From NCBI RefSeq assembly GCF_001701045.1, contig NZ_CP016757.1:434001-498000 (forward strand): a stretch of DNA of 64,000 nt. Reading direction: 5' to 3'. The notes below the pieces were generated by a model. It saw only the letters and a program-made list of their open reading frames with translations, was not told the DNA's origin and ran no database searches. A program made the position numbers and the translations under genes. Below are positions 23,004-34,052 of this stretch, in pieces. Numbering within the stretch: position 1 is the first letter of the stretch; the number at the start of each line of letters is the position of its first letter. This stretch comes from Cloacibacillus porcorum. GTDB lineage: Bacteria; Synergistota; Synergistia; Synergistales; Synergistaceae.

Positions 23004-23033
23004 TGCGCCTCCGGCTTGGGGGCGCATGTTTTG
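23004..23033 (+). terminator. Intrinsic terminator of the citDEF operon
   Basis: TGCGCCTCC (23004-23012) pairs with GGGGGCGCA (23018-23026) around the loop GGCTT, followed by TGTTTTG. It ends the cit transcript just before the small-RNA promoter, so that RNA starts independently. Confidence 0.75.
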
Positions 23034-23059
23034 TATAGGGTTGGAATGTCTGATATAAT
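23031..23059 (+). promoter_or_regulatory. Promoter of the CRISPR-repeat-like small RNA
   Basis: A perfect extended -10, TG-A-TATAAT (23051-23059, TATAAT at 23054-23059), with TTGTAT at 23031-23036 and a 17-base spacer. The expected transcription start, 6-7 bases after the -10, is 23065-23067, exactly the first base of the diverged CRISPR repeat. Confidence 0.7.
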
Positions 23060-23065
23060 TTACAA

Positions 23066-23155
23066 GTCGTGCCTTTTAGGCACGTTAGTTGAAACTTTGT
23101 GTTATATGTATTGACGACGAAAACATCTCTTTTTTATAAAAGGGATGTTTTTTTG
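23066..23155 (+). ncRNA. Putative crRNA-like regulatory RNA (CreR/CreA-like) upstream of cas3
   Basis: Three parts are visible. First is a lone 30-base repeat relative (23066-23095) ending TTAGTTGAAAC, 10 of 11 bases like the array repeat's 3' handle. Its hairpin arms CGTGCCT/AGGCACG differ from the array arms CACGCCC/GGGCGTG by three paired changes that all keep pairing. Second is a 25-base spacer-like segment (23096-23120). Third is an intrinsic terminator (arms 23121-23133 and 23138-23150, then a T-run). The spacer-like 5' end matches a PAM-flanked site at 23162-23186. Cas5c could process it and Cascade use it to repress a nearby promoter. RNA expression is inferred. Confidence 0.65.
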
Positions 23156-23161
23156 TATTTT

Positions 23162-23186
23162 ATATCTTTACTTATAACACAAAGAA
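23162..23186 (-). promoter_or_regulatory. Predicted Cascade target site of the crRNA-like RNA
   Basis: Read on the minus strand, a TTC PAM (complement of 23184-23186) is followed by TTTGTGTTATA, identical to the first 11 bases of the spacer-like segment at 23096. Positions 13-15 and 18-19 also match, 16 of 19 in all, then matching stops. Partial, seed-only pairing is what regulatory Cascade guides use to bind without cutting. The site overlaps the predicted promoter at 23167-23195. Confidence 0.55.
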
Positions 23187-23195
23187 GGTTAAAAT
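23167..23195 (+). promoter_or_regulatory. Predicted promoter facing the small ORF and cas operon
   Basis: TTTACT (23167-23172), 17 bases and TAAAAT (23190-23195). The -35 is moderate, the -10 five of six. The predicted Cascade site covers the -35 and most of the spacer. Other possible cas promoters are TATAAT at 23414-23419 and TTGTAG-17-TAATAT at 23475-23503, so assignment is open. Confidence 0.4.
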
Positions 23196-23230
23196 TATTT
23201 GTGTTGAACATAAGAATGATGGAGATGATC

Positions 23231-23395
23231 ATGGTGCATTTATTTTCAAATAAAAAAATATCACTTGTCATAAGATTTTGTGGAATGAAATTGAAATTGA
23301 ACTATGTTTCTTCTAATTCTCCCCTTTGGCTTGACTCTACTATGTGGGTAAGAGCTAAATATAAAAATATGGTCTTTGATAAAGCAAATGAATGA
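23231..23395 (+). CDS. Possible small basic protein before cas3
   Basis: 54 codons from an ATG with GGAG six bases upstream; earlier in-frame starts at 23201 (GTG) and 23216 (ATG) are possible. The peptide is rich in Lys and aromatic residues (MVHLFSNKKISLVIRFCGMK at its start) and AT-rich in codon use, unlike the chromosome. I recognise no family. It lies just downstream of the predicted Cascade-controlled promoter, which would fit a repressed toxin (CreT-like) gene, but it could equally be non-coding leader. The remaining bases to 23548 hold only candidate promoters. Confidence 0.3.
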   Translation: MVHLFSNKKISLVIRFCGMKLKLNYVSSNSPLWLDSTMWVRAKYKNMVFDKANE

Positions 23396-23548
23396 ATTAT
23401 TTGAAAATTACGTTATAATATAAAAATAGATCATAGCATTTTATAAAGTTCTTTATATGTGTATTGCTACTTAATTGTAGTTTTGTTGCATGGTTCATAA
23501 TATATACACAGATCGGATGAATAAATATTCGGAAGATGGGGTGTAATA

Positions 23549-26125
23549 ATGGATCAAACAGAATATATAGCGCATCTCAGGGATAAGGAACCCCGGTCTC
23601 AGAGTGTAGAAAAACATCTTTTAGAAACCGCCGTTCTGGCTAAGCGGTATGCCTCCGTCGCTGGATTGGGGGGAATTGGTGAATTATTGGGGCTTCTCCA
23701 TGATCTTGGCAAATATTCCTCTGATTTTCAACAATATATAAAAAGTTTGTCTGGATTTTATGATCAGGATCATGATGACGACAGCTGTTCTCAGAGAACA
23801 GAGAAAAATAAGCAAACGTTATCTATGAAGGGGAAAATAGATCATTCCACAGCGGGAGCCCAGTTTATATGGCAGCAGCTGGGTTGTAATAAGAAAGACT
23901 GGATAAAACTCACCGCGGCGGAGATGCTGGCGGTTATTCTAGCCGGACATCATGGCGGGTTGATGGATATTTCATCGGAGGGGGGCGACCTTTTTCTCAA
24001 GAGGATGAAAAAAGAAGATGGAAAAACTCATCTGACTGAGGTCGCAACAAAAATATCTCCTGAAGTTCGTGATCGGGTCGACAAGCGGCTGGCATCCTGT
24101 GTGACGATTTCAAAACTTAAAAAATTAATATTAAATATTAAGGTGAAGGAAGATGCAATCACAGAAGAATCCCTTAAAGATCTGGAGTTGGCGGCGGACG
24201 ATGGCTCAGCAAAGCTAAAATGCAATGAAATAAAAACGGCTGGGGCGGCCAGATTGTGGTTCGGTTTGGGCTGTCTGACAAAGTTTCTGTTCAGTGCACT
24301 GGTAGACGCAGACAGATGCGGCACGATTGATTTTTGTGTTGACGGCGCCGCCGAGGCCAGACAAAATTCGAATTATACAGGCTGGAGCATCCTTTCGGAA
24401 CGGCTGGAACGGTATCTTTCCCATTTTTCAGCGGATACTTCTGTAAACAGGATACGCAGGGATATTTCAGATTCATGCCGTGATGCGGCGCAGCGGGGCC
24501 GCGGCATATTTACCTTGACCGTTCCCACGGGCGGCGGAAAGACTTTGGCCAGCATGAGGTTTGCCCTCGAACTGGCGAAACGTTCCGTAGACGACGCACA
24601 TCCCATCGAGCGGATTATTTATGTTCTTCCATACACGACGATAATTGATCAAAATGCCGCCAAGACACGTGAAATCCTTGAGACGGAGGCGGATCGTGGT
24701 AAAGTTGTGTTGGAGTGTCACTCGAATCTGCTTGAGGAGAACGAAACTTGGGAGGGAAAGCTCCTATCAGAAAATTGGGATGCGCCGGTTGTCTTTACCA
24801 CCAACGTTCAGTTCCTGGAGGCTCTTTTTTCCGGTGGGACAAGGAGTATCAGGCGAATGCACCAGATGGCCGGCTCTATCATTATTTTTGACGAGATACA
24901 GGCCTTGCCGATCAAGATGGTACATCTTTTCTGCGGTGCTTTGAATTTTCTGCTTGAGCAGTGTGGCGCTACGGTCCTTCTCTGTACTGCCACACAGCCG
25001 CTGCTCAATGGAGTATCAAAAGATTACGGCTCACTGCGCTACGGTGCGGAGGATGAAATTATTCCTGACGCCAGAATGTTGTTTGATTCTCTTAAAAGAG
25101 TGGAGATCAAGGACTGCACGAAGATAGGCGGCTATTCAATCGGAGAACTGGGTGATATGGCAATTGAAAAGCAGCAGGAATTTATCTCAATTCTAGCTAT
25201 TGTAAATACTACTGCCGTCGCCAGGAAGCTTTATGTCGATATAAGGTCTAAGCTTGAAGCGGAGTCCGCAGTGAGCGTTGTCCACCTGAGTGCGTTGATG
25301 TGCCCAGATCACCGCAAGGTGGTTTTGGATGGTATTAACGAGCGGTTGAAGGCTGTAAAACCCATAATCTGTGTCTCTACACAGGTGATGGAGGCGGGGA
25401 TAGATGTCGATTTTGGCAGTGGGATACGCTCTCTTGCAGGCTTCGATTCGATCGTGCAGGCTGCCGGCCGCTGTAACCGGGAGGGACAAAAGGCGACGGC
25501 GCCCATGTTTATCGTCAATCCAGCCGATGAGAACCTTGATAGGCTTATTGATATTAAAGCAGGGCGTCATGCTGCGGAGAGGGTTTTGAACGAGCTTTCA
25601 TTAAATGCAGAAGGCGGGAAAGAAGATATTTTATCACTGGAAAATATTACGCGTTATTTTCAATACTATTTTTATGAGCGCCGCCAGGAAATGAGATATA
25701 ATGTCGAGACCGATCACGGAGAAGATACTCTGTGGAATCTACTCTCGCTGAACGTCAAAGTTCCTACGCCTCCCGGACGAAAAATCAGGCAGGCATTTGC
25801 CACTGCGGGAAACCTTTTTAATGTCATTGACGCGCCTACAAAGGGCGTTATCGTTCAATACCGCGAAGGTGAGGAGCTTGTAAATCAGCTGGCCCTTGAG
25901 GATGACCCTTCCATGGTAAAAAAATTGCTGCACAAAGCGCAGCGGTTTTCAGTAAACGTTTATCCATATCAATTTGATGCCCTCTACGAATGCCGGGGGA
26001 TATATAAACAGTCTCTCTGCGGTGCAGGCTGCACTGAGGTCTGGATTCTGGCGCGGGAGTTTTACGACGATGAATTTGGTCTGAGTATGACATCAATTGG
26101 GAAATTAAAATTGGAGGTGACATAG
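23549..26125 (+). CDS. cas3: Type I-C CRISPR helicase-nuclease Cas3
   Basis: 858 residues. The N-terminal HD nuclease has LLHDLGKYSSDF (HD at 51-52), DHSTAGAQF and AGHHGGL. The superfamily-2 helicase follows with VPTGGGKTLASMRFAL (Walker A, near 330), DEIQAL, CTATQPLL and the late AAGRCNREG motif VI. It degrades DNA after Cascade recognises a target. GC content drops from the cit cluster to this operon, suggesting acquisition by transfer. The stop overlaps the cas5 start by one base. Confidence 0.95.
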   Translation: MDQTEYIAHLRDKEPRSQSVEKHLLETAVLAKRYASVAGLGGIGELLGLLHDLGKYSSDFQQYIKSLSGFYDQDHDDDSCSQRTEKNKQTLSMKGKIDHSTAGAQFIWQQLGCNKKDWIKLTAAEMLAVILAGHHGGLMDISSEGGDLFLKRMKKEDGKTHLTEVATKISPEVRDRVDKRLASCVTISKLKKLILNIKVKEDAITEESLKDLELAADDGSAKLKCNEIKTAGAARLWFGLGCLTKFLFSALVDADRCGTIDFCVDGAAEARQNSNYTGWSILSERLERYLSHFSADTSVNRIRRDISDSCRDAAQRGRGIFTLTVPTGGGKTLASMRFALELAKRSVDDAHPIERIIYVLPYTTIIDQNAAKTREILETEADRGKVVLECHSNLLEENETWEGKLLSENWDAPVVFTTNVQFLEALFSGGTRSIRRMHQMAGSIIIFDEIQALPIKMVHLFCGALNFLLEQCGATVLLCTATQPLLNGVSKDYGSLRYGAEDEIIPDARMLFDSLKRVEIKDCTKIGGYSIGELGDMAIEKQQEFISILAIVNTTAVARKLYVDIRSKLEAESAVSVVHLSALMCPDHRKVVLDGINERLKAVKPIICVSTQVMEAGIDVDFGSGIRSLAGFDSIVQAAGRCNREGQKATAPMFIVNPADENLDRLIDIKAGRHAAERVLNELSLNAEGGKEDILSLENITRYFQYYFYERRQEMRYNVETDHGEDTLWNLLSLNVKVPTPPGRKIRQAFATAGNLFNVIDAPTKGVIVQYREGEELVNQLALEDDPSMVKKLLHKAQRFSVNVYPYQFDALYECRGIYKQSLCGAGCTEVWILAREFYDDEFGLSMTSIGKLKLEVT

Positions 26126-26838
26126 TGGACAACAGAATTTCTTTTAAAGTCAGGGGGAAATTCGCACTCTTTACGGATCCTGTAACAAAAATTGGCGGCG
26201 AGAAGTGCACCTATCAGATCCCCACCTACGAGGCGCTGCGTGGTATAGCCCGTTCAATTTACTGGAAGCCGACCTTTATCTGGCGGGTAGACAGGGTACG
26301 GGTCATTAATCAGATACGCACGCAGACAAAGGGAGTCAAACCGCTGAACTATAACGGCGGCAACAGTCTTGCCTTCTATAACTATTTGGCAGATGTCGAG
26401 TATCATGTGCAGGCTCACTTTGAGTGGAATCCTTTGGCTTCAGAGTTTATCTCGGATCGTAATGACAATAAGCATTACATCATGTTAAAGAGATATCTCG
26501 AACGTGGCGGAACGCGTGATATTTTCCTTGGCGTGCGCGAATGTCAGGGATATGTGGAGCCGATTGAATGGAGCGATAGGCCGGAAGGATTCTACAAAGA
26601 TGTCGACGAGATATCATTCGGACTGATGTTCCACAGCTTCCTTTATCCGGAAGAATCCGGAAAAGATGAGCTTTACAGCCGCTTTTGGTATCCCAAAATG
26701 CGCCGTGGCGAAATCGATTTCACCGGATATGAAGGAAATTTGATCTCTAGGTTTGTGCGTCCGATGAAGGGTACCAAGTTTGTAAGTAAAAACGGCGGCA
26801 CCCCTAAAGATTTTGACACGGCCAATGCCGAGGTGTGA
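26125..26838 (+). CDS. cas5c: Type I-C Cas5 (Cas5c/Cas5d), crRNA endonuclease
   Basis: 237 residues starting at GTG 26125, with a GGAGGTG site inside the end of cas3. The RAMP fold start FKVRGKFALFTDPVTKIGG and IPTYEALRGIARSIYWKP are typical. In type I-C systems, which lack Cas6, Cas5 cuts the repeat RNA; the NKHYIMLKR segment carries the Lys-His pair expected at the active site, with a tyrosine in the SIYWKP stretch. It would leave an 11-base 5' handle. Confidence 0.94.
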   Translation: MDNRISFKVRGKFALFTDPVTKIGGEKCTYQIPTYEALRGIARSIYWKPTFIWRVDRVRVINQIRTQTKGVKPLNYNGGNSLAFYNYLADVEYHVQAHFEWNPLASEFISDRNDNKHYIMLKRYLERGGTRDIFLGVRECQGYVEPIEWSDRPEGFYKDVDEISFGLMFHSFLYPEESGKDELYSRFWYPKMRRGEIDFTGYEGNLISRFVRPMKGTKFVSKNGGTPKDFDTANAEV

Positions 26839-26840
26839 TT

Positions 26841-28781
26841 ATGAGTTGGATGCAGAGGCTTGAAGAGACGTACGAAAACGCGTATAAGAGAAGGACTTAT
26901 TTCACTACATTACCTGTTCCGCCGGCGCATGTGGAACAGCAGGCGCATATTGAAGTTGTGTTGGACGGCGGGGGAAATTTTTTGTCCTCCGAAGTCGTAA
27001 ATAAAGAGGCTACCCTCATTCCGGCGACAGAGGCTTCCGCAGGCAGAACCAGCGGCGGCGAGCCTCACCCGCTATGCGACAAGATACAATATGTGGCGGG
27101 AGACTATAAGGACCACGGCGGAATTTCCAATGCCTATTTCGATGATTTTAAGAGCGGAAGTGAAATCAAAGCCGGATATTTATCACTGCTCACTGCCTGG
27201 AATGATTTTTACGATCATCCAATGCTGAAGGCCGTGCTTAAATACACTGGCAAAAGATCTTTGATTTCCGACCTTGCGGCGTCAAACGTGCTATTTCTTG
27301 ACGAGAGCGGCAATCTTCTCACCGAGTGGGATGGCAAAGATTCTCCGCCAATATTTAAAGTTCTGACAAAAAAGAAGGACAAGTCAGGAAAAAGTGTCTT
27401 TGACCAGGGAGGGGCGCTTGTGCGATGGCGCGTCCAAATTCCAGGCTGGTTGGAGGATCGCGTATGGGAATGTGACGAACTGACGGATTCTTGGATTCGC
27501 TTTAACGGCTCGCGCCAAAATGCGAATTCTCTCTGCTATATTACTGGAGAAGAGAGACCGTACGCGGTAAACCATCCGGCTCGTCTCCGTTATTCGGGTG
27601 ACAAGGCGAAACTCATATCTGCGAATGACCTTAGCGGCTATACGTTCAGAGGGCGCTTCTTAACACCGGAAGAGGCCTGCACTATCGGATACGATGTTAC
27701 GCAGAAGGCCCACTCTGCCCTTCGGTGGCTCATAGATGACCGGGGTTTTAAAAACGATAGTCAGGTTATTGTAGCATGGGCGATAAATACCGCAAAGATA
27801 CCGCCTTTGTGCGTCTCAAGCGACGAGCTTTTTGCAGATGCTCCGGAAGACGATGAATTGAGCGAGGTCTCTTTTAACAATATAGAGGACCTTGGCGCGT
27901 CATATGCGAAAAAACTTAATAAAAAACTTGCCGGATATAGGGCGGAGCTGAAGGATCGGGACGACATCGTCGTCATGTCGCTGGACTCCGCAACTCCGGG
28001 AAGGATGGCGATCACCTATTATCAAGAGATAAAAGGCTCGGATTTCCTTGCGCGGGTGGAAAATTATCATAAAAAATATGCGTGGCGCCAGTATTTTGGT
28101 AAAGAGAGAGTGTTTGTGGGCGCCCCGTCTATTTTTGATATCGCTCAGATGGCCTTTGCCGGAAAAACGGGGCCTTCATTGCTGAAATCTACCATCTCAA
28201 GATTACTTCCGGTTATTTCAGAGGGAATGGCATTCCCATGGGATCTGCTTCTTGCGGTCTGCCATAGGGCAGCACAGCCGCAGTCAATGGAATGGTGGGA
28301 ATTTGAAAAAATACTTGGCATTGCCTGCGGGCTTTATTCCGGATGCCACTCAGAGAGGGGATACAAAATGGCACTTGAAGAAGAGAGAAGGACACGCGAT
28401 TATCTTTACGGAAGGCTTCTTGCCGTGGCGGACAAGCTGGAGGGACGGGCTCTTTATATTGCAGGAGAGAGCCGAGATACCTCCGCAATGAAACTGATGA
28501 CGAGATTCGCCGAGAAGCCGTTCGAAACATGGCGGCAGATAGAGATAAATTTGGTTCCATACCGCAGCCGCCTTCAGGCTAAAGCGGAAAAAGAGCTAAA
28601 CTTCTTCAACATACTGATGGATAAAATATACATGTCATTTATACCAGGGGAATTTGAAGACAATGCCCCACTTTCCGCGGAATTTCTCTTAGGTTTTCAC
28701 TGTCAGCGCTATGAATTATGGCAGAAACAGAAAAGCAACGAAACGCAAAGCGATACAGCCGATAATTCGATAATTAAATAA
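26841..28781 (+). CDS. cas8c: Type I-C Cascade large subunit Cas8c
   Basis: 646 residues from ATG 26841, six bases after GAGGTG; a GTG at 26835 overlapping the cas5 stop is an alternative. Cas8c/Csd1 landmarks are DFKSGSEIKAGYLSLLTAWNDF, the AHSALRWLI segment and the late YKMALEEERRTRDYLYGRLL. It recognises the PAM and, through internal translation, often also supplies the small subunit. Position between cas5c and cas7c is the standard type I-C order. Confidence 0.94.
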   Translation: MSWMQRLEETYENAYKRRTYFTTLPVPPAHVEQQAHIEVVLDGGGNFLSSEVVNKEATLIPATEASAGRTSGGEPHPLCDKIQYVAGDYKDHGGISNAYFDDFKSGSEIKAGYLSLLTAWNDFYDHPMLKAVLKYTGKRSLISDLAASNVLFLDESGNLLTEWDGKDSPPIFKVLTKKKDKSGKSVFDQGGALVRWRVQIPGWLEDRVWECDELTDSWIRFNGSRQNANSLCYITGEERPYAVNHPARLRYSGDKAKLISANDLSGYTFRGRFLTPEEACTIGYDVTQKAHSALRWLIDDRGFKNDSQVIVAWAINTAKIPPLCVSSDELFADAPEDDELSEVSFNNIEDLGASYAKKLNKKLAGYRAELKDRDDIVVMSLDSATPGRMAITYYQEIKGSDFLARVENYHKKYAWRQYFGKERVFVGAPSIFDIAQMAFAGKTGPSLLKSTISRLLPVISEGMAFPWDLLLAVCHRAAQPQSMEWWEFEKILGIACGLYSGCHSERGYKMALEEERRTRDYLYGRLLAVADKLEGRALYIAGESRDTSAMKLMTRFAEKPFETWRQIEINLVPYRSRLQAKAEKELNFFNILMDKIYMSFIPGEFEDNAPLSAEFLLGFHCQRYELWQKQKSNETQSDTADNSIIK

Positions 28782-28800
28782 AATTAGGGAGGAACAGCAG

Positions 28801-29622
28801 ATGTCACTGTCGAAAAAGATTGATTTTGCGGTAATATTTTCAGTAAGAAACGCGAACCCTAACGGAGACCCCTTAAACAGCAACAGACCAAGAATCAGTT
28901 ATGAGGGAATAGGAGAAGTCTCTGATGTCTGCCTGAAACGTAAGATTCGGGACAGACTGCTTGAAGATGGCCTTGAGATATTTGTTCAATCGGAAGATCG
29001 TAAGGTTGATGAAGCAACATCATTGAAGGCAAGAGCCGACGCTGTTTTAAATAAAAAAATGACTAAGAGCGAAACAGAGAGAGCTGTGTGCGAAAAATGG
29101 TTTGACGTTCGTGCCTTTGGTCAAGTCTTTGCATATAAGGCCTCTAAGAACGAAGATCCGGGAGTCTCCATTGGCATTCGTGGTCCGGTAACCGTACAGA
29201 CAGCGTTCTCTACCGCTCCAATCTCTATTACCAGTACTCAGATCACAAAAAGCGTCAACGGAGAAGACACAAAAGATGGTAAAAAAGCCTCTGATACAAT
29301 GGGTATGAAGCATCGCGTAGATTCCGGCATATATGTGTTCTTCGGAAGTATGAATCCGCAACTGGCGGAGAAGACAGGATTTAGTGATGCCGATGCGGCA
29401 AAAATAAAAGAGGTTCTTCCCAGACTTTTTGAAAACGACGCCTCTTCCGCGCGGCCAGATGGCACCATGAAGGTGCAAAATGTCTTTTGGTGGGAACATA
29501 ATTGCAAAAGTGGACAATACTCCTCCGCGAAAGTTCACGATTCTCTTAAAGTTGAACCTGACGGCACGTATGAGATTTACGAGCTGGACGGGATCACGCC
29601 GGAGATAATTCCTGGATTTTAG
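28801..29622 (+). CDS. cas7c: Type I-C Cascade backbone subunit Cas7c
   Basis: 273 residues, with a GGAGG site. The N-terminus IDFAVIFSVRNANPNGDPLN is the Csd2/Cas7 signature, followed by the SNRPRISYEG loop, and the central SIGIRGPVTVQTAF and MGMKHRVDSGIYVFFG are conserved. Several copies form the filament that holds the crRNA. It lies 20 bases after cas8c. Confidence 0.95.
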   Translation: MSLSKKIDFAVIFSVRNANPNGDPLNSNRPRISYEGIGEVSDVCLKRKIRDRLLEDGLEIFVQSEDRKVDEATSLKARADAVLNKKMTKSETERAVCEKWFDVRAFGQVFAYKASKNEDPGVSIGIRGPVTVQTAFSTAPISITSTQITKSVNGEDTKDGKKASDTMGMKHRVDSGIYVFFGSMNPQLAEKTGFSDADAAKIKEVLPRLFENDASSARPDGTMKVQNVFWWEHNCKSGQYSSAKVHDSLKVEPDGTYEIYELDGITPEIIPGF

Positions 29623-29634
29623 GCTGAGCTGTTA

Positions 29635-30306
29635 ATGTATGCCGATGACGATCTCCTTCTGATATCAGGTCTGCAGCATCTGGCTTTCTGCGAAAGGCAG
29701 TGGATGCTTATTCATGTCGAGCAGCTATGGGCCGAGAATCTTCTTACCATCGAGGGAGATCATCTGCACACGAATGTACACCAGATCGGGAGTGAAAGCC
29801 GTGGCGAGGTAAAACTTGCCACGGGCCTCCAGCTCCGTTCGTTTGAGCTGGGGCTTTACGGCGTAGCGGACATGGTTGAATTCCATCGCGACGATAGAAA
29901 TGGCGTCGTCATTCCAAGCTTCAGAGATAAGGGAAAAAGATGGCGGCCGTATCCCGTAGAATACAAACGCGGGCGCAGACGTTGGGATATCGCGGACGAA
30001 GTGCAGATGTGCGCACAGGCTATTTGCCTTGAGGAGATGTTGTGCTGCTCTATTACAGAGGGCGCTATCTTTTATGGTGAACCAAAGAGAAGAACAAAAA
30101 TAGCACTTACTGAGGAGCTGCGCAGTGAAGTTGCCGCAAAATGCAACAGGGCGCGCCTTTTGGCCTCCGGCGCGGAGGCACCAGCCTATACGCCTGGAAA
30201 ACAATGTAAAAATTGTTCTATGCGGGAGCATTGCATGCCAGAAGAAACTCATTTGGCGGACAGATCGCGGAAATATTTAGACAATATATTTAAGCAGAAA
30301 TGTTGA
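29635..30306 (+). CDS. cas4: CRISPR adaptation nuclease Cas4
   Basis: 223 residues. Iron-sulfur ligands are C19 (HLAFCERQW) and the C-terminal cluster CKNCSMREHC. The RecB-like nuclease core shows VEYKRGRRRWDIADEVQMCA, with the Glu-x-Lys pair. It trims prespacers and selects those with the correct PAM for Cas1-Cas2. The ribosome binding site is weak, and translation may depend on cas7c, 12 bases upstream. Confidence 0.93.
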   Translation: MYADDDLLLISGLQHLAFCERQWMLIHVEQLWAENLLTIEGDHLHTNVHQIGSESRGEVKLATGLQLRSFELGLYGVADMVEFHRDDRNGVVIPSFRDKGKRWRPYPVEYKRGRRRWDIADEVQMCAQAICLEEMLCCSITEGAIFYGEPKRRTKIALTEELRSEVAAKCNRARLLASGAEAPAYTPGKQCKNCSMREHCMPEETHLADRSRKYLDNIFKQKC

Positions 30307-30322
30307 CCTTGGGGGAAAGACA

Positions 30323-31357
30323 ATGAAAAGATTGCTGAACAGCCTCTTTGTAATGACCCAGGGAGCGTGGCTTTCCCAAAAAGGAGAAAACATAATAGTT
30401 CACCTGAATAAAGAGGAAAGCCGTGCCTTCCCGATTCACATATTTGACTCTGTGCTGTGTTTCGGGCAGGTAAGCGTGACACCGCCGCTTATGGGGGGGT
30501 GTGCTGAGCATGGAGTGTCAATCTCTTTCTTCACTGAATATGGGAAATTTTTGGCTTCGGTTCATGGTCCTGTCAGTGGAAATGTCCTCCTACGCAAAGA
30601 GCAATATCGTATATCAGACTCACCGCAGCGCAGCGCCGGCATCGTACGGAGCCTTCTTGCGGCAAAAATAAGCAACAGCCGTGTTGTCCTCCAACGTTTC
30701 TTACGGGATCATCCGCAGGATGGTACTATAGAAAAATTTTTTAGGGAGAATATCGGCCAGCTTGAAGGGTATCTTGCGCAGCTTCGTGACAAAGACAACA
30801 TAGAAGAGATGCGTGGGATAGAGGGGATATCGGCAAGGCTCTACTTTGATCTGTTTGATAAACTCATAATACAGCAGAAGGACGACTTTAAATTCACAGA
30901 AAGAAACAGACGCCCGCCAAGGGACAGGGTGAATGCGATGCTCTCTTTCGTCTACACACTCCTTACAAACGACGTAAAATCAGCGCTGCATGGCGTTGGG
31001 CTGGATCCCGCCGTAGGTTTTTTGCACAAAGACAGGCCCGGGCGCGCAAGCCTGGCTCTTGATATGATGGAAGAGTTCAGGAGTTGGTGGGCTGACAGAT
31101 TTGTACTCTCCCTCATAAACCTTAAGCAGGTCAAGGGCTCAGGGTTCACATTTTCAGAAAGCGGAGCCGTTATCATGACAGAGGAGGCGCGCAAAACGGT
31201 GATATCCGAGTGGCAGTCACGTAAACAGGACGAAGTGCTTCATCCATACACTGGTGAAAAAATTCTGATAGGCCAGCTGCCTCATCTTCAGGCTATGCTG
31301 CTTGCACGGCACATACGCGGCGATATGCAGGAATACCCGCCATATATCTGGAAGTAG
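30323..31357 (+). CDS. cas1: CRISPR integrase Cas1
   Basis: 344 residues, the size of type I-C Cas1. The catalytic histidine lies in GFLHKDRPGRASLALD and the acidic partner in the following DMMEEFR stretch (near residues 234-250). The first glutamate ligand sits in the preceding helical domain. It forms the spacer-integration complex with Cas2. A GGGGGAAAG site precedes the ATG. Confidence 0.94.
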   Translation: MKRLLNSLFVMTQGAWLSQKGENIIVHLNKEESRAFPIHIFDSVLCFGQVSVTPPLMGGCAEHGVSISFFTEYGKFLASVHGPVSGNVLLRKEQYRISDSPQRSAGIVRSLLAAKISNSRVVLQRFLRDHPQDGTIEKFFRENIGQLEGYLAQLRDKDNIEEMRGIEGISARLYFDLFDKLIIQQKDDFKFTERNRRPPRDRVNAMLSFVYTLLTNDVKSALHGVGLDPAVGFLHKDRPGRASLALDMMEEFRSWWADRFVLSLINLKQVKGSGFTFSESGAVIMTEEARKTVISEWQSRKQDEVLHPYTGEKILIGQLPHLQAMLLARHIRGDMQEYPPYIWK

Positions 31358-31366
31358 GGATGAGAG

Positions 31367-31657
31367 ATGCTTGTTGTGGTAAGCTATGACGTCAATGTCA
31401 GCAGTGAAGGCGGTGCGAAGCGTCTACGGAAAATCGCCAAACTCTGCGAAAACCATGGGCAGAGAGTCCAGTTCTCTGTCTTTGAATGTTTGGTTGACCC
31501 GGTACAATGGTCCGAGTTAAAATTTCAGTTAGAGAAGAGCATTGATAATCAGAAAGATAGCCTGAGATACTACTTTTTGGGAGCAAACTGGCAAAGAAGA
31601 GTAGAACATGTCGGAGCGAAAGAACCATATGATCCTCAAGGATTACTTTTGCTGTAA
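31367..31657 (+). CDS. cas2: CRISPR adaptation protein Cas2
   Basis: 96 residues, starting LVVVSYDVNV with the conserved Asp8 and later GQRVQFSVFEC. It is the structural dimer of the Cas1-Cas2 integrase. It follows cas1 after nine bases and is the last protein gene before the array leader. Confidence 0.95.
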   Translation: MLVVVSYDVNVSSEGGAKRLRKIAKLCENHGQRVQFSVFECLVDPVQWSELKFQLEKSIDNQKDSLRYYFLGANWQRRVEHVGAKEPYDPQGLLLL

Positions 31658-31841: not shown

Positions 31842-34052
31842 GTCACGCCCTCACGGGCGTGCTAGTTGAAACGATTGACACGCTGGAACGTGTAGCTTTT
31901 AAGGTGTCACGCCCTCACGGGCGTGCTAGTTGAAACCAAATAGACACGATTATGTCCCGCACAGCCCCGGTCACGCCCTCACGGGCGTGCTAGTTGAAAC
32001 GATTAAGACACCCACATGATTTTGTTCGCCCTCCGTCACGCCCTCACGGGCGTGCTAGTTGAAACGTGCCTTGGTTGGCAACGGCACCAATATCACGCGT
32101 CACGCCCTCACGGGCGTGCTAGTTGAAACACCTACTGTAAGGTCAAGAAACATCAGCCCGAATGTCACGCCCTCACGGGCGTGCTAGTTGAAACTTCGCC
32201 TCCTTTACTCCTTTACTCCCTTAACCGTCACGCCCTCACGGGCGTGCTAGTTGAAACCAACGATGGACGTGGAAAACGTCGTCGATGCGGGTCACGCCCT
32301 CACGGGCGTGCTAGTTGAAACTACTTCCATAATTGCCCTAAAGACCAGGTAAAGTCACGCCCTCACGGGCGTGCTAGTTGAAACTTTTTTAGATAAGTCG
32401 ATAGAAAATGTTGCTCTGGTCACGCCCTCACGGGCGTGCTAGTTGAAACAAATGTAATCAATATTTGGTGTTCTTTTTTGTTGTCACGCCCTCACGGGCG
32501 TGCTAGTTGAAACCGTGTCCCTTCTGCGGGCACATGCAGTATCTCGTCACGCCCTCACGGGCGTGCTAGTTGAAACCTTCATTCGTCGTTTTTGCCTGCG
32601 ACTGTCCGCGTCACGCCCTCACGGGCGTGCTAGTTGAAACTGGTGATAGAGGACCAAATATCTTTAATGCTCTGTCACGCCCTCACGGGCGTGCTAGTTG
32701 AAACCTTTTTAGTTACTATATCAGGTAATGATGCTAACGTCACGCCCTCACGGGCGTGCTAGTTGAAACCTTGGTTAAAGGGCTGTAGCCCAGAACCGTT
32801 GAGTCACGCCCTCACGGGCGTGCTAGTTGAAACATGTATTCGGAGCTCTTTGCCGCAGCAATCGCAGGTCACGCCCTCACGGGCGTGCTAGTTGAAACTG
32901 TCTTTACAAAAGAGATATTGAAATCGTATTTCGTCACGCCCTCACGGGCGTGCTAGTTGAAACCGCATATTCATGATACTGACCGATCATGAGCGGTCAC
33001 GCCCTCACGGGCGTGCTAGTTGAAACACTTGGAGCTTCGCTAGATTTTTCATTGCTTGCGTCACGCCCTCACGGGCGTGCTAGTTGAAACAATTACCATA
33101 GATGACAGCGGCACTATCGGATTGTCACGCCCTCACGGGCGTGCTAGTTGAAACATAGATTGCCAAAGGTCGGCAATCGTATCGTTGGTCACGCCCTCAC
33201 GGGCGTGCTAGTTGAAACCGATCAGTCCGTTTACATCGATAAAGACTTTTGGTCACGCCCTCACGGGCGTGCTAGTTGAAACTTTTCCGCCTTAAATTTA
33301 TAGCCCATGTACTTAGTCACGCCCTCACGGGCGTGCTAGTTGAAACTGGAGTACGTGGTCGGCTGTCATATCGGCATAGCGTCACGCCCTCACGGGCGTG
33401 CTAGTTGAAACATATCCGCCTTATATAGAATTGTTCGCACGGGAAGTCACGCCCTCACGGGCGTGCTAGTTGAAACGTTCCGCAAGAACGTCAATTTCAC
33501 GACATGAGGGTCACGCCCTCACGGGCGTGCTAGTTGAAACCTGCTGCGCCTGGGCCTGTGCGCGCTGCTTCCGGTCACGCCCTCACGGGCGTGCTAGTTG
33601 AAACAGCACCCCGGCACGCTTACATTAGAGGCGCATAGTCACGCCCTCACGGGCGTGCTAGTTGAAACCTCCTGGGACGATTTATGCGGAGCAGCGCGGC
33701 GGTCACGCCCTCACGGGCGTGCTAGTTGAAACCGCAGATTATGTCTCCGTATATCCCATAGGGGGCGTCACGCCCTCACGGGCGTGCTAGTTGAAACGCT
33801 ATCAGCTGGACGGGGACAGGAGGGGCACAAGTCACGCCCTCACGGGCGTGCTAGTTGAAACATGTGACGGGGATCTCGCTCGACAAAGAAATATGTCACG
33901 CCCTCACGGGCGTGCTAGTTGAAACTCCATGCCACAGTCGACCTCAATCAGCGCGTCAGTCACGCCCTCACGGGCGTGCTAGTTGAAACCATACGTTGCC
34001 GGGCGCAAACCATTGCCCGACAGTCACGCCCTCGCGTGCGTGCAGTTGAAAC
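31842..34052 (+). CRISPR. Type I-C CRISPR array, 35 repeats and 34 spacers
   Basis: Thirty-four identical 31-base repeats start GTCACGCCCTCACG and end GCTAGTTGAAAC, forming a 7-bp hairpin with loop TCAC. Period is 63-65 bases, so spacers are 32-34 bases. I counted starts at 31842, 31906, 31970, 32035 and so on to 33959. The 35th, at 34023-34052, is degenerate: several changes in the hairpin and one lost base. This marks the leader-distal end and, with cas2 and the leader on the left, sets transcription to the plus strand. I noticed no duplicate spacer and no spacer matching this window. Confidence 0.98.

Follow-up and report, generated by a model that had tools for sequence, protein, structure and literature searches.

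A solitary, diverged CRISPR repeat located between citF and cas3 on this bacterial chromosome, beside the cell's own type I-C cas operon, probably forms the core of a CreR-type (cas-regulating RNA) gene with one repeat, which would encode a crRNA-like small RNA and act as a brake on that operon. The window referred to throughout is the whole stretch of DNA that was analyzed (64,000 nucleotides), and its relevant features are listed in Table 1. As read from the sequence, the unit would comprise a predicted promoter, the repeat, a 23-nt spacer-like segment and a predicted intrinsic terminator. The TATAAT of the small-RNA promoter ends 7 nt before the repeat, placing the predicted transcription start at approximately 23066, the first base of the repeat. 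This promoter was not listed by a consensus scan because its -35 hexamer matches at only 3/6 positions. The element is not an ordinary CRISPR array or mini-array, as promoter and terminator flank exactly one repeat, the terminator follows 23 nt later, and no further repeat copy was found upstream of the array.

Table 1. Features of the window and of comparable elements in other type I-C loci (strand as given for each locus; promoters and terminator are predictions).
Feature	Position	Strand	Details
Predicted small-RNA promoter	23031-23059	+	TTGTAT-17-TATAAT, extended -10 (TG before; TGATATAAT); read from sequence
Diverged repeat (psi-R)	23066-23095	+	30 nt, GTCGTGCCTTTTAGGCACGTTAGTTGAAAC; upstream of cas operon
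Parts of psi-R	stem 23068-23074/23078-23084, loop 23075-23077, 11-nt 5' handle 23085-23095	+	
Spacer-like segment (psi-S)	23096-23118	+	23 nt; seed TTTGTGTTATA at 23096-23106; seen as inverted repeat
Predicted intrinsic terminator of small RNA	23119-23152	+	15-pair stem, T-run
Predicted targeted promoter	23167-23195	+	TTTACT (23167), 17 nt, TAAAAT (23190); points to cas3
Target	23173-23186	-	PAM TTC 23184-23186 (minus-strand reading), then TTTGTGTTATA 23173-23183
Possible 54-codon ORF	23231-23395	+	GGAG 6 nt before ATG
Type I-C cas operon	23549-31657	+	cas3, cas5c, cas8c (csd1), cas7, cas4, cas1, cas2 (Pfam)
CRISPR array	31842-34052	+	repeat GTCACGCCCTCACGGGCGTGCTAGTTGAAAC, 31 nt; last repeat 34023-34052 decayed
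G005 element	L075 3878-3903		8-nt seed; 14/15 scored positions match
G005 target	L075 3986-4005		upstream of and adjoining extended -10 (4013) of cas3 (ATG 4053)
G086 element		opposite strand	repeat GTCGATGGTGTGGAGACATTATCGTGGATTGAAAC vs array repeat GTCGCCCCTCACACGAGGGGCGTGGATTGAAAC; 9-pair stem of unrelated sequence, same handle
G167 element	L083 3538-3627 (cas-oriented coordinates)		degenerate first repeat, spacer, better-preserved second repeat
G023 element	between cas3 and cas5c		8-pair stem of unrelated sequence; 14/15 positions match
Lacticaseibacillus paracasei plasmid element	NZ_CP065155		13-nt seed; target between TTGTCT-17-TAGAAT and cas5c

Compared with the repeat of the array, the stray repeat differs in sequence and keeps its fold. 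Both form a 7-bp stem, in which three pairs are exchanged on both arms: A-T in the array is G-C in the stray repeat at pair 2, and C-G is T-A at pairs 3 and 7. The loop reads TCAC in the array and TTT in the stray repeat, while alignment of the two handles (CTAGTTGAAAC in the array, TTAGTTGAAAC in the stray repeat) gives identity at 10/11 positions. An earlier note on this DNA had described these two-sided changes with retained pairing as well as the conserved handle, and both descriptions were confirmed by sequence, fold and alignment. When six random substitutions were simulated on the 14 stem positions, all seven pairs remained intact in 0.04% of cases if only Watson-Crick pairs were accepted, and in 0.28% if G-U pairs were also allowed. 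The stray repeat shares a G at position 4 with most type I-C repeats of the phylum, and one array repeat of another locus (L081) has a stem identical to that of the array repeat of the window; going by these repeats, the copy that changed may be either the stray or the array repeat. The last repeat of the array, which the same note had called decayed, indeed has one stem pair broken and one handle base missing, as is usual at the leader-distal end.

The conclusion previously drawn from these observations, namely that selection acts on recognition by Cas5c, stands in part. Selection on the repeat is further supported by the elements of two relatives (G086 and G023), which carry fully paired stems of unrelated sequence on a conserved handle. 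However, recognition by Cas5c is only half of the story, as an 11-nt, PAM-adjacent match to the predicted promoter upstream of cas3 had been missed, and it is this match that suggests a purpose for the repeat. A perfect hairpin is also not universal among such elements, since the first repeat of G167 and the Lacticaseibacillus repeat fold weakly while their handles are kept.

The seed TTTGTGTTATA has one further copy in the window, which lies 77 bp downstream on the opposite strand, adjoins a TTC and matches at 11/11 positions. The spacer-like segment and its target are mismatched at position 12 and match again at 13-15, producing 14 matched bases in positions 1-15. TTC followed by the 11-mer seed occurs a single time in the 3,585,187-base genome (3.59 Mb, single contig). 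When the region up to cas3 was dinucleotide-shuffled 5000 times with the spacer held fixed, the observed match was equaled in 0/5000 cases, and neither the 34 array spacers nor the other 138 GAAAC sites of the window gave a comparable match. TTC functions as a PAM in type I-C, and self-killing by the type I-C system of Xanthomonas required at least 27 matched bp (PMC8406640); a match of the length found here should therefore not trigger destruction of the chromosome.

The target is placed exactly between the -35 and -10 hexamers of the predicted promoter upstream of cas3. This promoter agrees with the consensus at 9/12 positions and is weaker than most of those targeted in relatives, and both promoters of the window are consensus matches only, of which shuffled sequence yields about as many. 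A scan for terminators detected none from the targeted promoter to the start codon of cas3 (ATG at 23549). A second -10-like site (TATAAT at 23414) lies between target and cas3 and, given this site, the 363-nt gap and the possible 54-codon ORF, cas3 may have a promoter of its own.

The arrangement is consistent with the following mechanism. Transcription by RNA polymerase would begin with the first base of the repeat and end at the terminator approximately 57 nt beyond the repeat. Cas5c, which does the job of Cas6 in type I-C systems, would then recognize the hairpin and cut on its 3' side, so that a short spacer keeps the 11-nt 5' handle. Because the crRNA of type I-C Cascade has no 3' stem-loop (PMC7684278), one repeat and a terminator may suffice, and the minimal one-repeat design suits an effector of this type. 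Cascade carrying this RNA would bind the TTC-flanked partial match and block the promoter around it, which reads towards cas3 and the operon. Around 14 matched bases would allow Cascade to bind, whereas destruction of the chromosome by Cas3 would require more. Once array crRNAs or anti-CRISPRs draw Cascade away, the operon would be de-repressed, closing a feedback loop as reviewed for CreR.

Among CRISPR subtypes, type I-C ranks with the commonest. Within the phylum, a type I-C csd1 is present in 33/188 genomes. The loci of these 33 genomes were scanned together with seven Cas3 relatives from other bacteria and twelve plasmid loci (a thin sample outside the phylum) for seeds that follow a repeat handle and have a second copy adjoining a PAM. 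After array self-matches (L076 and L077) and matches without a CRISPR repeat (Shewanella L035 and Vibrio L037) had been removed, and a match on Thermus pTT27 discarded as an ordinary array, five further elements remained. Four belong to relatives within the phylum and one to a Lacticaseibacillus plasmid; each has a diverged repeat, a different seed and a partly matching target, and the PAM is TTC in all except one, where it is TTT. With only six elements, including that of the window, among roughly 50 loci examined, the feature is not general to type I-C. The six elements differ in their seeds, which suggests repeated evolution or re-aiming of the circuit.

In the four phylum relatives (G005, G086, G167 and G023) the target falls in the promoter or 5' UTR of cas3 or cas5c, and the targeted promoter is clearly a cas promoter, where in the window it is a predicted promoter upstream of cas3. 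The G086 element matches at 15/15 scored positions, with mismatches exactly at 6, 12 and 18 and with the TTT PAM, and its target lies just downstream of the TTGACA-16-TATAAT of cas3. The target of G167 lies downstream of the TTGACA-17-GATACT of cas3, and that of G023 just downstream of the -10 of the TTGACA-18-AATAAT of cas5c. Per 5000 shuffles, the observed match was equaled once for G167 and never for G005, G086, G023 or the L. paracasei plasmid, these being per-locus counts without correction for the large number of sites scanned, a limitation that weighs most on G167. The G167 element is a two-repeat mini-array whose first repeat retains only the handle and whose second retains the hairpin, which fits the division of labor of a two-repeat creA.

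The mismatches between guides and targets concentrate at every sixth position. In structures of type I Cascade, every sixth base of the guide is flipped out and not read. Across the six guide-target pairs, positions 6, 12 and 18 were mismatched in 13/18 cells, compared to 9/90 cells elsewhere in positions 1-18 (Fisher p about 1e-7), although part of this pattern was selected, because the scans that yielded G086, G167 and G023 demanded a match at positions 1-5 and allowed a mismatch at 6 (and 12). Position 18 was never scored in the scans and is mismatched in 5/6 pairs, and position 12 is mismatched in the window and in G005, both of which were found without tolerance there. A mismatch at every sixth base offers a simple rule for finding more elements.

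The same RNA, acting at the same site, could alternatively be the antitoxin half of a CRISPR-addiction module (CreTA/CrePA), in which case the targeted promoter would drive a toxin within 23196-23548, for example the 54-codon ORF, and loss of Cascade would release that toxin. Degenerate ectopic repeats are characteristic of CreTA, and the 363 nt between target and cas3 accommodate an ORF preceded by a GGAG. In Citrobacter rodentium, moreover, a type I-E CreTA occupies a cas intergenic region and includes a small ORF without homologues (PMC12055562). Against this, searches of Pfam, of phages and of the phylum's 188 genomes turned up no domain match and no homologue for the 54-codon ORF, its base composition is flat by codon position, and the promoter runs on towards cas3 with no terminator found in between. 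In G005, G086 and G167 the target abuts the start of cas3, so that a toxin gene is excluded there by space. Since CreT toxins can lack homologues (PMC12055562), the addiction module nevertheless keeps an appreciable, if minor, chance of being correct. In a toxin-antitoxin module the 54-codon ORF would be a candidate CreT/CreP; otherwise it would belong to the cas3 5' UTR. It is rather improbable that we are looking at the first type I-C addiction module, with one RNA repressing a new 54-codon toxin in the cas3 leader as well as restraining the cas operon; were an addiction module present, loss of Cascade would be punished and anti-CRISPR attack sensed.

Two further explanations fare worse. The repeat is very unlikely to be a functionless relic of an older array or of an old solitary repeat-spacer unit, with a hairpin retained through recency or chance: stray repeats lacking obvious context do exist (as on contig C15 of G046) and a terminal array repeat does decay, but here all six substitutions fall in complementary pairs, promoter and terminator flank a single repeat, the PAM-flanked seed match is unique, and the same anatomy recurs with other sequences in five loci. 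A phage-derived RNA anti-CRISPR (Racr) that titrates Cas5c and Cas7 shares the anatomy of a solitary repeat behind a promoter and has already been validated for type I-C (PMC10651486), yet is scarcely credible for an element that sits in a bacterial chromosome between citF and cas3 next to its own cas operon, rather than on a virus or plasmid, and that has a seed match to the promoter upstream of cas3 for which a Racr would have no need.

A CreR-like gene thus remains our preferred reading, and it resembles the described CreRs in several respects. CreR has been reported for types I-B, I-E and V-A (2026 review, PMC13131331; also reviewed in PMC12737573). Shared with these is a predicted crRNA-like RNA from an ectopic, diverged repeat, which here lies apart from the array and retains a 7-bp hairpin and the handle bound by the effector. 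Next to a PAM, the spacer likewise has partial complementarity to a promoter, which in the window is the predicted one upstream of cas3 and may be that of the cas genes, and repression without cleavage is predicted, the complementarity of 14 matched bases being too short for cleavage when held against at least 27 bp. The element differs in its subtype, in which Cas5c takes the place of Cas6 as the repeat processor, in having one repeat and a terminator rather than a two-repeat mini-CRISPR (the G167 relative has two), and, in the window, in the possible ORF of the leader. Standalone repeats and mini-arrays with spacers partly matching cas promoters have reportedly been predicted in many type I systems by Shmakov et al. 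in 2023. As the 2026 review names I-B, I-E and V-A, a type I-C CreR looks new relative to those cases. No report of one was found in the literature searched, which included neither the original CreR paper nor Shmakov et al. 2023, and priority is not claimable.

With CreTA and CrePA (PMC8501985, PMC9458426, PMC12055562), the element has in common a degenerate repeat, a short partial-match spacer and a position inside the cas locus, and the haloarchaeal CreTA shares the TTC PAM of the window. Unlike these modules, it has no recognizable toxin, and the targeted promoter of four relatives runs straight into cas3 or cas5c. The Cas9-associated scaRNA and tracr-L also use a short partial match to direct a CRISPR effector to repress transcription, but belong to type II and differ in RNA architecture and effector.

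Searches with the element itself added little. In a DNA search of the family with the whole element, the matches were just short stretches, most of them AT-rich, near the terminator and promoter, Rfam gave weak matches alone, all below the gathering score, and no Cas5c was found in viral contigs. The type I-C system was absent from a same-genus genome (G014) by Cas3 and Csd1 search. The nearest relative with this system is G046 (Cas3 73% identical), whose contig begins 93 nt before cas3, leaving the stray-repeat region outside the contig. G046 does contain a solitary type I-C-like repeat (GTCGCCCCGCACGGGCGCGTTAGTTGAAAC; G046:C15:20047-20076, L158), the handle of which is TTAGTTGAAAC, as in the stray repeat of the window. 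It is located on contig C15 and not on the contig with the cas genes, and it was rejected as an orthologue of the stray repeat as it is unlinked to cas.

The 92 nt before cas3 (23457-23548) are partly conserved in G046 and include an AT-rich palindrome, GAATA(A)ATATTC, which may mark either a second promoter or a cas3 leader element. On the L. paracasei plasmid (L118 5793-5998, NZ_CP065155.1), an 11-codon ORF with an RBS-like GAGGGTGAT lies between the targeted promoter and cas5c and is followed by a G+C-rich hairpin, an arrangement reminiscent of a CreT toxin in a gap similar to that of the window. The same plasmid carries an IS3-family insertion in its cas4-cas2 stretch.
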